Source: Parafrankia discariae (GTDB taxonomy: Bacteria; Actinomycetota; Actinomycetes; Frankiales; Frankiaceae). Taken from it: 64,000 bases of DNA. Each line of letters opens with the position of its first letter. Within the stretch, counting starts at the first letter, position 1. Of this stretch, positions 14,118 through 18,084 are shown piece by piece. Below the pieces are notes generated by a model, which saw nothing but the letters and a program-made list of their open reading frames with translations, did no database searches and was not told the origin of the DNA. Where the stretch lies: positions 1 through 64,000 of the forward strand of contig NZ_KB891285.1 of NCBI RefSeq assembly GCF_000373365.1, given 5' to 3'. The position numbers and the translations under genes are program-made.

Positions 14118-16232
14118 TCAGCCGGGTGGGCGGGGGGTCATCCGGACGATGCGCAGGCCGGCCATGGCCAGCACCTCGGGCATGTTGCGCACCACGTCGC
14201 GGTCGCGGTCCTGGTCCGCCGGGGAGAGCTGCTCCCAGTCGACGAGCGAGGGATGGCGTGGATCGGAGCCGCCCCGCTCGACCGGCCCGTACCGCACCCC
14301 GCGGCTCTCCCGCTCACGCCGCCAGCGGGCGTGCTCCTCCCGGGCGAGCTCCGCCAGCTCCTCCGGGGTGAAGACGAACTCCGGGTCGTGCTCCCCGGCC
14401 GGCATGAGCATCCAGTTCCGCCGGCGCAGGACGTCGCTGTACCCGATCGCCTGCGCCAGGTTGGCGGCCCGCAGATCGTCGTCCAGTTCGTCCCAGGGGC
14501 GCAGGCTGCGCCGCGTGCGCAGCACCGCCCCGCCGGTCAGCTCCTTGAACAGGTACTTCTCGTGGATGATCCGCGCGAAGCGCTCGATGAGGTCGTTCGC
14601 CCCCGGGTCGAGCGGCAGCGCCTCGTCGTTCACCGCGAAGAACCGCAACCCGCCCTGGACGTCGTCCAGCAGCGCACCGCCGCCGCGTCGCCGCGGGCCG
14701 GGCGGCGGCGGGACCGGCGGGTCCGGGTCATCCGGGCCGCCCGCGTCGTCCGGGTCGTCGTCGGGGCCGTCCGGGTCGCCGGGCGCCTCGCGCGAGCCGA
14801 AGACGTCCTCGAAGCTGCGCTGCCGGCCGGTGCGCACGACCACCCGGGTGCCGTGCTCGCCGAGGCTGGTGGCGCCCAGCGCGCGCGCCACCTCCAGCCC
14901 ACGCAGCAGCGCCTCCTCCTCGTCGCCGTGGCACACGTAGACGAACTCCGGCGGGACGGTCCGGGTCCCCTCGACCGGGTCGTCCAGTTCGAGGACCGCC
15001 CCGGGCAGTTCCCCGGACGGACTGTCGTGGGCCATCAGCTCCACCCGGGCCAGCGCCGGCTCCCGTGAGCGCATCGCCGCCGCCTCGAGGGTCGCGTTCC
15101 GCCCCGACAGGACGATCCGCAGCGGCGGCGCGCCGGGCGCGCTGTTGTCCCGCCAGCGCCGCGCCAGCTCCATCACCACGGCCTGGCCCAGGTCGGACAG
15201 CCCGAGAACGACGACGGGCGCCGGGCGCGCCCGCGGGTCGGGGAAGCCGTCCGGCCGGGCCCAGGCGGGCGCGTTGCCGTTCAGCATGGCGTGCGCGCCG
15301 AGCACCTCCACCGCGAAGAAGTCGAGGCGGAAGCCCGGGTCGTTCTCCAGGCCGATGCGGCGCGCCCGCAGGTGCGGCAGCAGCGAGAGATCGCCTACCT
15401 GGGCCAGGCAGCGCAGCGGATGGTCCAGCCGGGTGGTGGAGAGCCGACGGCTGCCGGCCCGGCTGGACCGCACGACGCCACGGGCGGTGAGCGCGACGGC
15501 GAGGTTGGACGCGGTGTCGTCCAGGCAGCTGTAGACGACGTCGGCCCGCGTGATGCCCGCGCTGGCCAGGACGAGCCGCTCCACCGGGTCACCGATGACC
15601 CGCAGCAGGTTCGGGGGCCGCTCGGCGTCCGGGTACTCCCGTTCGGCGTCCTCGGCGACCAGCACCACCCGGCTGCTGCCGACGAGCTTGTCCACGAGCG
15701 CGGAGGCGGTCGGCCCGGTGCCGCAGACGATGACGTGCCGGTGCGCGTGCCGGGCGCGGAACCGCTCGAACCGGTGTGCGAACAGGGTGCTGGCGGCGTC
15801 GGCGACACCGACGGCCGTCGCCAGCGGGGCGAGGAAGCGGGCGACCTCCAGCGCCGGGGGGAACTGCCCGCCGTTCTCGAACATCGTGCCGTCGGCGAGG
15901 AACAGCGTCGAGGCGAAGAAGATCACGTTCGCCCAGGTGAACGCCGCGGGGTCCGCGGAGAAGTGCTGATACGCGCCGATGAGGCTCAGCACGAAGGCGA
16001 TCAGCCCGAGCACGAGGAACGTGCCGAGCAGGTGGCGGCGCAGCCAGCGGCCGATCCGTCCCATCCGGCCGAACAGCAGCGTCGCGTAGAGCCGCGCCGC
16101 CCGCGCCACCACCCCGCCGAGCAGGTGGCGCGGGTCCAGTTCCCGGGCGAGCCGGCCCAACCGGCCCGGCCGGCCGGGCGGACCGGGTGGACCCGGACCG
16201 CCCGACGGACCTCGGGAACCGCCGGCGGTCAC
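14118..16232 (-). CDS. Membrane protein with two TrkA-N (RCK-like) domains and a C-terminal RyR domain
   Basis: 704 residues. Residues 1-60 are Gly/Pro/Arg-rich. Membrane segments follow at about 68-90 (LLGTFLVLGLIAFVLSLIG), 99-115 and 128-150. The first Rossmann-type TrkA-N domain starts near 166 (HVIVCGTGPTASALVDKL) and a second near 340 (VVVLGLSDLGQAVVMELA). An acidic Pro-rich spacer lies near 475-520. The last ~150 residues are RyR-like: PWDELDDDLRAANLAQA, then LAREEHARWRRER, GVRYGP and HPSLVDWEQL. The plan is that of a ligand-gated ion channel, but the K+ filter TVGYG is absent; FASTLFLADGTMF occupies the pore position. It is coupled to the PP2C gene: GTG 16232 lies 17 nt past that gene's stop. 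The ligand is unknown. Confidence 0.75.
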   Translation of the reverse strand: MTAGGSRGPSGGPGPPGPPGRPGRLGRLARELDPRHLLGGVVARAARLYATLLFGRMGRIGRWLRRHLLGTFLVLGLIAFVLSLIGAYQHFSADPAAFTWANVIFFASTLFLADGTMFENGGQFPPALEVARFLAPLATAVGVADAASTLFAHRFERFRARHAHRHVIVCGTGPTASALVDKLVGSSRVVLVAEDAEREYPDAERPPNLLRVIGDPVERLVLASAGITRADVVYSCLDDTASNLAVALTARGVVRSSRAGSRRLSTTRLDHPLRCLAQVGDLSLLPHLRARRIGLENDPGFRLDFFAVEVLGAHAMLNGNAPAWARPDGFPDPRARPAPVVVLGLSDLGQAVVMELARRWRDNSAPGAPPLRIVLSGRNATLEAAAMRSREPALARVELMAHDSPSGELPGAVLELDDPVEGTRTVPPEFVYVCHGDEEEALLRGLEVARALGATSLGEHGTRVVVRTGRQRSFEDVFGSREAPGDPDGPDDDPDDAGGPDDPDPPVPPPPGPRRRGGGALLDDVQGGLRFFAVNDEALPLDPGANDLIERFARIIHEKYLFKELTGGAVLRTRRSLRPWDELDDDLRAANLAQAIGYSDVLRRRNWMLMPAGEHDPEFVFTPEELAELAREEHARWRRERESRGVRYGPVERGGSDPRHPSLVDWEQLSPADQDRDRDVVRNMPEVLAMAGLRIVRMTPRPPG

Positions 16233-16248
16233 TCCGGGCGGTGGGCCG

Positions 16249-18084
16249 TCATCGCGCCGACGGCTCCGAGACCAGGTCGGCGACGACGATGGTCGTGTCG
16301 TCGCGGGCGCCGGCCAGCAGCGCCGCCTCCACCAGGGCGTCCGCCGCCCGCTCCGGGGGCTCCGGGCCGAGCTCGGTCATCAGCCCCAGCAGCTGCTCGG
16401 GGGTCATCACCTTCGTGATGCCGTCACTGCCCAGGATCACCCGGTCACCGGCCCGCACCGCCTCGCGCAGGATGTCGGCCTCGATCCGGTCGGCCAGGCC
16501 GATGGCGTTGAGCAGCGGGCCGTTCTTGATGGCGTGCGGTGTCGTGACCTGGCGCGGGCGGCCCTTCTGCGGCTGCAGCCAGACGGAGCTGTCGCCGACG
16601 TGGGCGATGAACAGCGTCTCGCCCGTCGACTGCTGGCGGCCGAGGATGACCACGTCGAGGGTGCAGGCCATGCCCCGCCAGGACGGCTCCTGCCGGGGCT
16701 TCTCCCGCACGACCTGGTTCGCCCGGGCGACCGCCTGGCGTAGCCCGTCAGCCGGGTCCTCGGCGTACTGGGGACGGAACCCGGCCACCGTGGTGACCGT
16801 CAGCGTCGAGGCGATCTGGCCGGCGGCCTCCCCGCCGACACCGTCGGAGACGGCGAGCAGACCGTCCGACACGACGTAGGCGTCCTCGTTGGGGCCGCCG
16901 CGCTTGCCACGCCGGGTGCGGCCGGCCGCGGCCAGCCGCAGCGCGGGAGCCGTGGTGTGGACCGGCTCGGCCGCGACCAGACCGGGCGCGGAGGCTTCGG
17001 GGGTGGGAATGGTCGGCGCGGTCGTCGTCGGCGAGGCCGCGGCGCCCCAGGCCGCCTCACCACCGGCCGCGTCCGTCCCGTAAGCGTCCGTCCCGTAACC
17101 GCCGGCGCCGTAACCGCCGGCCGCGCCGGGCCCGGACGGCGCGGTCGAGCCGATCCGCGCCGTCTCGCCGGCCGTCGGGTCGGGGTAGGAGGCCGGTCCG
17201 GAGTACCCCGACGGCGTCTGGTGCGGGAAGCCGCCGGCGAGCGGGTCGCGGTCGTCGACCGCGAGTCGGTAGGCGGAGTCGTCCGCCTCGCCATGGTGGG
17301 GGCGCCCGCTGGGGGGCGGGGTCCACCCGGTGGCATCCGGGTCTCGGCTGTCGTTCATGTAGGTGTCCCTGCCGCCTGAGTCGAGTCCGCTCATGTCGAT
17401 ACCCCCCGTGCCGTGGGCGCCGGTGTGGGGGCCGCCGGGCTGTGCGGCTCCGGTGAGGTACGCGCCCGGAGGGGACGGATCCGCCGGGACCGCGCCGGTA
17501 TCGGCGCGTGACGTGTACGCGCCACCGATATTGTGACCGCCGGTCCGGCCGCTTTCCGTAGCGGACACGACCGTGTCGGTGTCATTCGCTGTACTCCCCG
17601 GCGCGCCGGCGGCCCCGTGGCCGGTGGCGCCGTGACCGGGATCGAGCGGACTCTCGACCCGGGTGGCGTCGGCGTCGCCCCATCCGGCGTCGCCCCATCC
17701 GGCGTCGCCCCAGGCGGAACCGTCGTCCGGACCCGGCCCGCCCACCCCGCCGTCGCCGGGGTCCGTGCCGTCGCCGCGGCTCGTGCCGTCCGCGGCAGGC
17801 GCCACCCGCACCGCGGCGGGAGCACCCGCGGGCGCCGTGAAGCCGGGTACGACGTCGTCCGGTGACTGTGGGTCCGCCCCGCCGGGGTCCGGCGCGTCCG
17901 GAGCCGGGGGCTCCGGGGTGTCGCGCAGCGGGATGCTGCCGGGCCGCGAGCGTCTCGTCTCCAGTGAGCGCCTGCGCCCGGACTCGTACCCGGTGCGTGG
18001 TGCGCGACTGGACAGGACGACGAAAACCACCGCGCCCACCAGAAGCACCACGATGAGCATGATTGGTACCAGTGAGCTACCCAT
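16249..18084 (-). CDS. Membrane-anchored PP2C-family Ser/Thr phosphatase
   Basis: About 611 residues. One membrane segment (LVPIMLIVVLLVGAVVFVVL) lies at residues 5-24, followed by ~360 residues of disordered Gly/Asp/Pro-rich linker with repeats (GWGDA). The C-terminal PP2C domain covers about 380-605: RRGKRGGPNEDAYVV, LLAVSDGVGGEAAGQIAS, FIAHVGDSSVWLQ, VILGSDGITKVMT and GARDDTTIVVADL supply the metal-binding aspartates. It would dephosphorylate Ser/Thr-phosphoproteins at the inner membrane face. ATG 18084 is preferred (GGAGG just upstream); GTG 18102 adds six residues. It is the first gene of a two-gene unit with the RyR/TrkA-N protein, which is therefore a candidate substrate or partner (inference). 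Confidence 0.88.
   Translation of the reverse strand: MGSSLVPIMLIVVLLVGAVVFVVLSSRAPRTGYESGRRRSLETRRSRPGSIPLRDTPEPPAPDAPDPGGADPQSPDDVVPGFTAPAGAPAAVRVAPAADGTSRGDGTDPGDGGVGGPGPDDGSAWGDAGWGDAGWGDADATRVESPLDPGHGATGHGAAGAPGSTANDTDTVVSATESGRTGGHNIGGAYTSRADTGAVPADPSPPGAYLTGAAQPGGPHTGAHGTGGIDMSGLDSGGRDTYMNDSRDPDATGWTPPPSGRPHHGEADDSAYRLAVDDRDPLAGGFPHQTPSGYSGPASYPDPTAGETARIGSTAPSGPGAAGGYGAGGYGTDAYGTDAAGGEAAWGAAASPTTTAPTIPTPEASAPGLVAAEPVHTTAPALRLAAAGRTRRGKRGGPNEDAYVVSDGLLAVSDGVGGEAAGQIASTLTVTTVAGFRPQYAEDPADGLRQAVARANQVVREKPRQEPSWRGMACTLDVVILGRQQSTGETLFIAHVGDSSVWLQPQKGRPRQVTTPHAIKNGPLLNAIGLADRIEADILREAVRAGDRVILGSDGITKVMTPEQLLGLMTELGPEPPERAADALVEAALLAGARDDTTIVVADLVSEPSAR
17671..17715. repeat. Three 15-bp in-frame tandem repeats in the PP2C linker
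   Basis: Units GGCGTCGCCCCATCC twice, then GGCGTCGCCCCAGGC, encoding repeated GWGDA on the minus strand. Confidence 0.85.

Follow-up and report, generated by a model that had tools for sequence, protein, structure and literature searches.

The window analysed here, a stretch of 64,000 nucleotides from Parafrankia discariae (contig NZ_KB891285.1 of assembly GCF_000373365.1), contains two adjacent minus-strand genes, separated by 16 nt, that encode a PP2C phosphatase and a 704-residue channel-like protein with RCK and RyR domains. Both are real genes with open, well-coded frames. The channel gene has a ratio of non-synonymous to synonymous substitution rates (dN/dS) of 0.18, 0.31 and 0.29 when compared with three Parafrankia relatives, and this purifying selection shows that it is not a chance frame; the catalytic domain of the PP2C is held much more tightly, with a dN/dS of 0.04-0.05 against two Parafrankia relatives. 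The longest PP2C frame comprises 617 residues and has an internal ATG at 18084, which is probably the natural start, and relatives start there too. Pfam assigns residues 167-252 of the 704-residue protein to TrkA_N (E 3.6e-12) and residues 628-695 to RyR (E 1.5e-7, 32 bits against a gathering threshold of 27.4). No other RyR gene was found in the source genome (7.9 Mb, 194 contigs). When both window proteins were scanned with the defence models of PADLOC, the channel gave no match and the PP2C a marginal one, and a PHROGs scan of the window proteins yielded weak matches to families of no known function only.

An AlphaFold2 model of the 704-residue protein, built on an alignment of 63 homologues, has a mean per-residue confidence (pLDDT) of 85.3 and a predicted template modelling score of 0.81. 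In order, it has a long helix, a short one (residues 100-109), a second membrane helix (126-161), a pair of Rossmann domains and, at the C-terminus, a helical part. The order of first transmembrane segment (TM1), pore helix and second transmembrane segment (TM2), followed directly by RCK, matches the layout of two-TM, RCK-gated channels. A Foldseek search placed GsuK chains first (E 4e-9), followed by TrkA, MthK, CASTOR, Slo1 and RyR3 Repeat12. VIA-align ranked the MtDMI1 gating ring highest (Z 19.3, 280 residues, 3.3 Å), with GsuK at Z 18.9 and CASTOR at Z 18.6. The GsuK superposition covers 342 residues including the TM part at a root mean square deviation of 10.3, a value that we read as domain motion; MthK was also matched by both searches with its TM part included. 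These tandem-RCK fold matches indicate that the second RCK domain (RCK2), although missed by Pfam, is real; the two Rossmann/TrkA-N domains expected by an earlier reading of this DNA (hereafter the original prediction) are thus both present. A profile of the 63 sequences matched PDB sequences of ryanodine receptors (1.9e-43), TrkA (1.5e-20) and GsuK (4.2e-18).

The closest whole-channel fold is therefore that of GsuK, which shares the TM1-P-TM2 unit followed by two tandem RCK domains and is itself gated by adenine nucleotides. PMC3510474 describes GsuK (PDB 4gx0-4gx5) as a multi-ligand-gated K+ channel of Geobacter that is activated by ADP and NAD+. GsuK differs from the window protein in being a K+ channel without an RyR module, whereas the latter adds a C-terminal RyR sensor. 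The gating-ring match also raised membership of the CASTOR/POLLUX family, which was rejected, as the C-terminus differs and the Castor/Pollux family was not matched in the Pfam scan. DMI1, CASTOR and POLLUX, which are not known to carry an RyR module, resemble the window protein in their tandem RCK ring, the top structural match, and in lacking TVGYG. According to PMC6697748, these plant proteins are Ca2+-selective nuclear channels with four predicted TM segments and no TVGYG filter.

The membrane module was predicted to be devoid of the K+ filter, and this holds: a K+ channel-like TM1-P-TM2 is seen in the model, and TVGYG is missing from all 63 aligned homologues. The pore helix is well conserved, with Y or F at position 105 and L at 110 in 63/63 sequences and F at 111 in 59/63. 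The conservation of LxVARFLAP in the inner helix is unusable as evidence, because the motif was the search pattern by which the loci described below were found. A paralogue on another contig of the source genome (C109) combines TVGYG with TrkA_N and is 27-28% identical over residues 45-256 of the window protein. It proved to be an ordinary K+ channel of the TVGYG type.

Table 1 Features of the channel and PP2C genes. Positions are those of the window.
Feature	Position	Strand	Evidence
RCK-RyR channel-like protein, 704 aa	14118..16232	minus	Open frame, coding score, Pfam TrkA_N and RyR, dN/dS
TM1	15957..16037 (residues 66-92, within model helix 36-92)	minus	AlphaFold2; membrane span by eye from hydrophobicity
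Pore helix	15906..15935 (residues 100-109)	minus	AlphaFold2 helix; conserved aromatic 105, LF 110-111
Selectivity-filter position	15858..15905 (residues 110-125, LFLADGTMF...)	minus	Alignment columns; TVGYG paralogue aligns over the region
TM2/inner helix with LEVARFLAP motif	15750..15857 (residues 126-161)	minus	AlphaFold2 helix 126-161
RCK1/TrkA-N domain	15228..15740 (residues 165-335)	minus	Pfam, structure match
RCK2, second Rossmann domain	14799..15215 (residues 340-478)	minus	AlphaFold2 and fold search; missed by Pfam
First RyR repeat, degenerate (H557, Y560, W580)	14379..14651 (residues 528-618)	minus	Own hidden Markov model (HMM) RYR1, Repeat12 fold, H557 and W580 in 63/63
Second RyR repeat with H634, W637, H660, D677	14133..14378 (residues 619-700)	minus	Pfam RyR, column counts, RyR3 Repeat12 fold match
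PP2C phosphatase, predicted membrane-tethered	16249..18084 (ATG start); longest frame to 18102, 617 aa	minus	Pfam PP2C_2 (E 1.3e-12), PDB relatives including PstP
PP2C catalytic domain	16252..16923 (residues 394-617 of the long frame)	minus	Pfam, PDB relatives, dN/dS 0.04-0.05

Two RyR repeats stand in tandem at the C-terminus, as in animal Repeat12. Folded alone with AlphaFold2, this RyR module reached a pLDDT of 86.4 and matched RyR structures only, the best being a Bt/human RyR chimera (Z 14.3; first unrelated structure Z 3.8). It superposes on RyR3 Repeat12 with bound AMP-PCP at Z 14.2 over 159 residues (3.3 Å), and the RyR3 Repeat12 structures contain, by their PDB titles, ATP, ADP and AMP-PCP, in agreement with the expectation that relatives of the module bind adenine nucleotides. 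The likeness to animal ryanodine receptors thus extends to the tandem fold, to homologous sequence and to an adenine nucleotide pocket in the RyRs, Repeat34 being of the same kind. In animals, by contrast, the module is peripheral in a channel of ~5000 residues with an unrelated pore. Animal ryanodine receptors further contain MIR, RIH and SPRY domains and a six-TM pore; in the window protein, Pfam detected no other domain of RyR channels, only TrkA_N, RyR and weak matches to other families.

A second point of comparison is provided by the phage RyDEP proteins of the RyR Repeat12 family, which, according to a preprint of May 2026 (PMC13232231), cleave or sequester 2'/3' cyclic ADP-ribose (cADPR) immune signals. 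They belong to the same domain family, PF02026, and are glycosidases or sponges of phages, whereas the RyR domain of the window is fused to a channel-like membrane protein. In the same preprint, H75 and D117 of RyDEP contact the terminal ribose of the ADP-ribose (ADPR) ligand, W78 the adenine and H100 the phosphates, with corresponding residues in RyR3. All four have window counterparts (H634, D677, W637 and H660, respectively) in a pairing that was made by eye and without the RyDEP sequence. Among the 63 homologues, H634 is invariant, as are E633, H557 and W580, and the W637 column holds 59 W and 4 F.

Of 58 relatives searched, 39 match the 704-residue protein, some through the K+ channel paralogue only. 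A scan of species genomes with a sequence pattern confirmed 81 loci, of which 80 were kept. They fall in Frankiaceae (22), Micromonosporaceae, Streptomyces, Promicromonospora, Nocardia and others, together with metagenome-assembled genomes (MAGs) that bear the labels Chloroflexi, Planctomycetota, Verrucomicrobia, Aminicenantes, Thermoanaerobaculaceae, Longimicrobiales, Coriobacteriaceae, Pseudomonadales and one Methanomicrobiales archaeon. All five modules occur in one open frame at 71 of the 80 loci, and the remaining 9 lack or split one or two, as called by HMMs that we had trained on members of the family. Tblastn searches of the RyR module against phages and of the channel against plasmids gave no match; in a viral structure library, phage RyR proteins matched marginally (best E 7.8e-4). 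Several loci are unusual. A divergent copy in a genome of the same family (G013; L057:9587-11377) has stop codons in its RyR part, looks to be decaying and lies near glnD/glnK/amt-like genes. In G008 (L056:1188-6774), two glutamine-synthetase-like genes flank the channel together with a stand-alone RyR gene, and a glnE-like gene adjoins; these gene names were given by eye. Three loci (L086, L087 and L089) of one genus (g10, family f4; mycobacteria by inference) encode proteins of 670-700 residues in which two membrane-like helices and RyR repeats are accompanied by an additional domain at the C-terminus.

At loci beyond the family, TIR proteins recur as neighbours of the channel, and several of them carry WD40 repeats. 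Small proteins that we take to be SLOG-like, judging by their motifs, overlap or abut the channel frame (L108, L111, L133, L145, L147, L153 and L154); their scores lie below the Pfam cut-offs (YAcAr 0.004, YpsA 0.048), and no SLOG protein was among their PDB sequence matches. RelA/SpoT-like proteins with TPR, SLOG, in part NUDIX, and C-terminal RyR domains adjoin the channel at L118:3970-6465, L122:7799-10306 and L159:2664-5753 and are a second candidate source of signal. Further neighbours are AAA-RyR proteins (L130, L163, L169 and L172) and NTPase-like proteins starting FISSTF or FVSSTF. TIR_2 was detected, at E up to 1e-3, in 10 of 84 immediate-neighbour proteins from 50 loci, a set from which 6 proteins were dropped for length, distance or N runs and 7 of 8 syntenic Promicromonospora loci were excluded, and in which one locus had no channel call. 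PADLOC matched few of the 84, with TIR-type models in a handful. A pattern search among the neighbours of eleven loci found a W-x-x-x-E-type motif in seven TIR proteins, the glutamate of which is presumably the TIR catalytic position.

The TIR association was quantified by a TIR_2 search of 15 genomes of named actinobacterial isolates outside the family (L112 excluded; one of the eight Promicromonospora loci used). In 9 of them, the query channel has a TIR gene at a distance of no more than ~3 kb; in a tenth, Promicromonospora, the single TIR gene is 0.2 kb from a second channel copy missed by the search pattern. Hence a channel gene with a TIR gene no more than 3 kb away occurs in 10/15 genomes against 0.11 expected (P about 1e-19), and by family majority the figure is 6/7 (P about 6e-13); these P values assume random gene placement, and TIR neighbours had already been seen when the test was set up. 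The expectation was taken from genome-wide TIR density rather than from a matched control gene, since a K+ channel control was present in only 1 of the 15 genomes. We conclude that the TIR link is strong in actinobacteria and unproven elsewhere. Catellatospora (L115) and Actinomycetospora (L149) provide examples of homologues paired with TIR. Stand-alone tandem RyR genes with a RyDEP-like layout stand beside some channels (L056:1188-1727, L115:2404-2880 and L159:5995-6501) and could serve as a signal-removing off-switch. Frankia genomes encode a second, stand-alone tandem RyR protein of ~170 residues with the ligand residues (L063:8445-8954; also L058, L064, L065 and L066), the gene for which sits among glycosyltransferase-like genes; the source genome lacks it.

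From the architecture, the fold, the conservation of ligand residues and the TIR proximity in relatives, we infer, with rather more confidence than doubt, that the 704-residue protein acts as a ligand-gated ion channel of K+-channel descent that senses an adenine nucleotide, probably an NAD+-derived one. It would be a subunit of a presumably tetrameric two-TM, tandem-RCK channel that no longer has the K+ filter and has acquired a tandem RyR module at its C-terminus. This module, and perhaps RCK1 too, may bind an adenine-containing nucleotide, the likeliest being one derived from NAD+ (ADPR or a cyclic form of it, for example). Binding would then act through the RCK ring on the inner helices and alter cation conductance in one direction or the other. 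In many actinobacteria the TIR protein of the adjoining gene probably makes the signal, and in relatives of this kind its product is a natural candidate for the ligand. In the case of the window copy, ADP, ATP or NAD+ would be equally plausible as ligand. More tentatively, these elements may be joined in a bacterial cADPR-to-RyR-channel pathway, in which TIR, SLOG-like or RelA/SpoT-SLOG-RyR enzymes would derive a signal from NAD+ or a nucleotide, the tandem RyR would read it, the channel would depolarise the cell and the stand-alone RyR would act as off-switch; we regard this as possible, on balance short of probable.

A number of observations weigh against a gated channel with such a ligand. 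The filter stretch varies among homologues (LFLADGT in the window, LFVLESG or LFVFQPP in others), unlike a selective pore, and this sequence variability argues for either a non-selective pore or none. Two of the putative ligand residues are less well kept than the others, the H660 column holding H 41, S 17, N 4 and T 1, and the D677 column D 47, N 9, A 5 and S 2, a loss of D in 16/63. The RCK-RyR protein is present in 31 of 35 genomes of the family (one further genome has an RyR fragment only), with synteny fixed in two genera, which is unlike a typical defence gene. The source genome has 21 TIR_2 matches, none on the contig of the window (C184). Finally, in a second set, 17 genomes drawn from the 34 MAG-type loci, TIR is close to the channel in only one genome (L166, where it is the only TIR_2 of the genome; 0.13 expected).

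The variable filter, with its missing TVGYG, would also suit a protein that does not conduct, the two helices serving only as anchor for a nucleotide sensor at the membrane or for a glycosidase that, like RyDEP, degrades cyclic ADPR. The latter is favoured by H634 and D677 of the window protein, the counterparts of H75 and D117, which form the catalytic pair of RyDEP. However, both the pore helix and the inner helix show conservation, the overall fold matches RCK channels, and with D677 replaced by A, S or N in the homologues noted above, catalysis is not a shared function of the family. As the binding residues are mostly kept and the catalytic pair is not kept throughout, the family fits a sensor better than an enzyme. 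We consider a non-conducting protein improbable.

The broad retention within the family instead raises the question of a housekeeping cation channel, in which the RCK and RyR domains would read the ADP/NAD+/ATP state of the cell much as GsuK does, with no immune role and the TIR neighbours a later recruitment. Its status as a core gene with fixed synteny in Parafrankia (g1) and Frankia (g5), the TIR-free contig, the activation of GsuK by ADP and NAD+ and the nucleotides in the RyR3 Repeat12 structures are all consistent with this. The TIR, SLOG-like and RelA/SpoT-SLOG-RyR neighbours of relatives point, however, to signals that are synthesised, and outside the family the distribution is patchy, a phylum-wide sample of 396 genomes yielding RyR of any kind in only 20. 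A metabolite sensor of this type appears somewhat unlikely, and a channel responding to an adenine nucleotide, probably an NAD+-derived one, remains our preferred reading.

The original prediction had instead paired the channel with the neighbouring phosphatase. The PP2C is indeed predicted to be membrane-tethered: inspection of the sequence reveals an N-terminal membrane helix, and the catalytic domain, called PP2C by Pfam, is Stp1/PstP-like; its score for the Stp1/IreP-type equivalog NF033484 lies below the cut-off (109.5 bits against 230). The long linker between them is of low complexity, with short repeats GDAGWGDAGWGDA at window 17640-17720. Across two genera, the identity of the catalytic domain is 83-99%. 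On one strand and adjacent, the channel-PP2C pair is found in the window and in 16/16 examined loci of Parafrankia and Frankia, a count that leaves out the contig of G034; the pair is absent from G013. Conservation of the pair thus holds in these two genera and fails beyond them, with no PP2C near the channel homologue at 13 loci of three other genera (g2, g4 and g6) and G013. An orthologous PP2C (65-84% identity) is encoded elsewhere in 11/11 of those genomes that were searched. In G013, the gene directly after the PP2C is a membrane gene, the same that lies next to the channel in the window, and the channel is missing at this site. Inspection of the listed neighbours of 58 loci outside the family revealed no PP2C, no PP2C model having been run over them.

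The channel is thus a unit that can insert next to a PP2C which is older and inherited separately, and in the window lineage it would now be a core chromosomal gene. That PP2C dephosphorylates the channel and so sets its gating draws on the 16-nt gap, the shared strand and the conserved pairing in two genera; the unpaired loci, the arrangement in G013 and the far slower evolution of the PP2C (dN/dS 0.04-0.05 against 0.18-0.31) make it quite improbable. We therefore rejected the PP2C, ancestral and kept unpaired in other genomes of the family, as partner of the system; its adjacency is weak evidence of function and says little about mechanism. Of the proposed phospho- and nucleotide-controlled conductance, the ligand-gated part survives as the best reading, and the phosphatase as mechanistic partner does not.

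Among known immune systems, Thoeris is closest in gene organisation, in that a TIR gene of the relatives adjoins a membrane protein with a nucleotide-binding domain. The Thoeris sensor described in PMC9503650, however, is a SLOG domain, whereas the window protein has RyR in its place and no TIR on its contig. Our literature searches brought up neither an RCK-RyR channel nor an RyR-RCK Thoeris effector, although older comparative-genomics papers may list the TrkA-N/RyR architecture. Each module is already known; what is new is the joining of the two and the link to TIR. Should the ligand prove to be a TIR product, the family would represent a new kind of TIR-linked effector and make it possible to ask, in a simple bacterial setting, how channels are opened by signals derived from NAD+, a matter long debated for animal ryanodine receptors. 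If the proposed pathway is correct, it would add a class of Thoeris-like effectors not described before and give prokaryotes a counterpart to the cADPR-RyR axis that is disputed in animals, with a homologous sensor and an unrelated pore.

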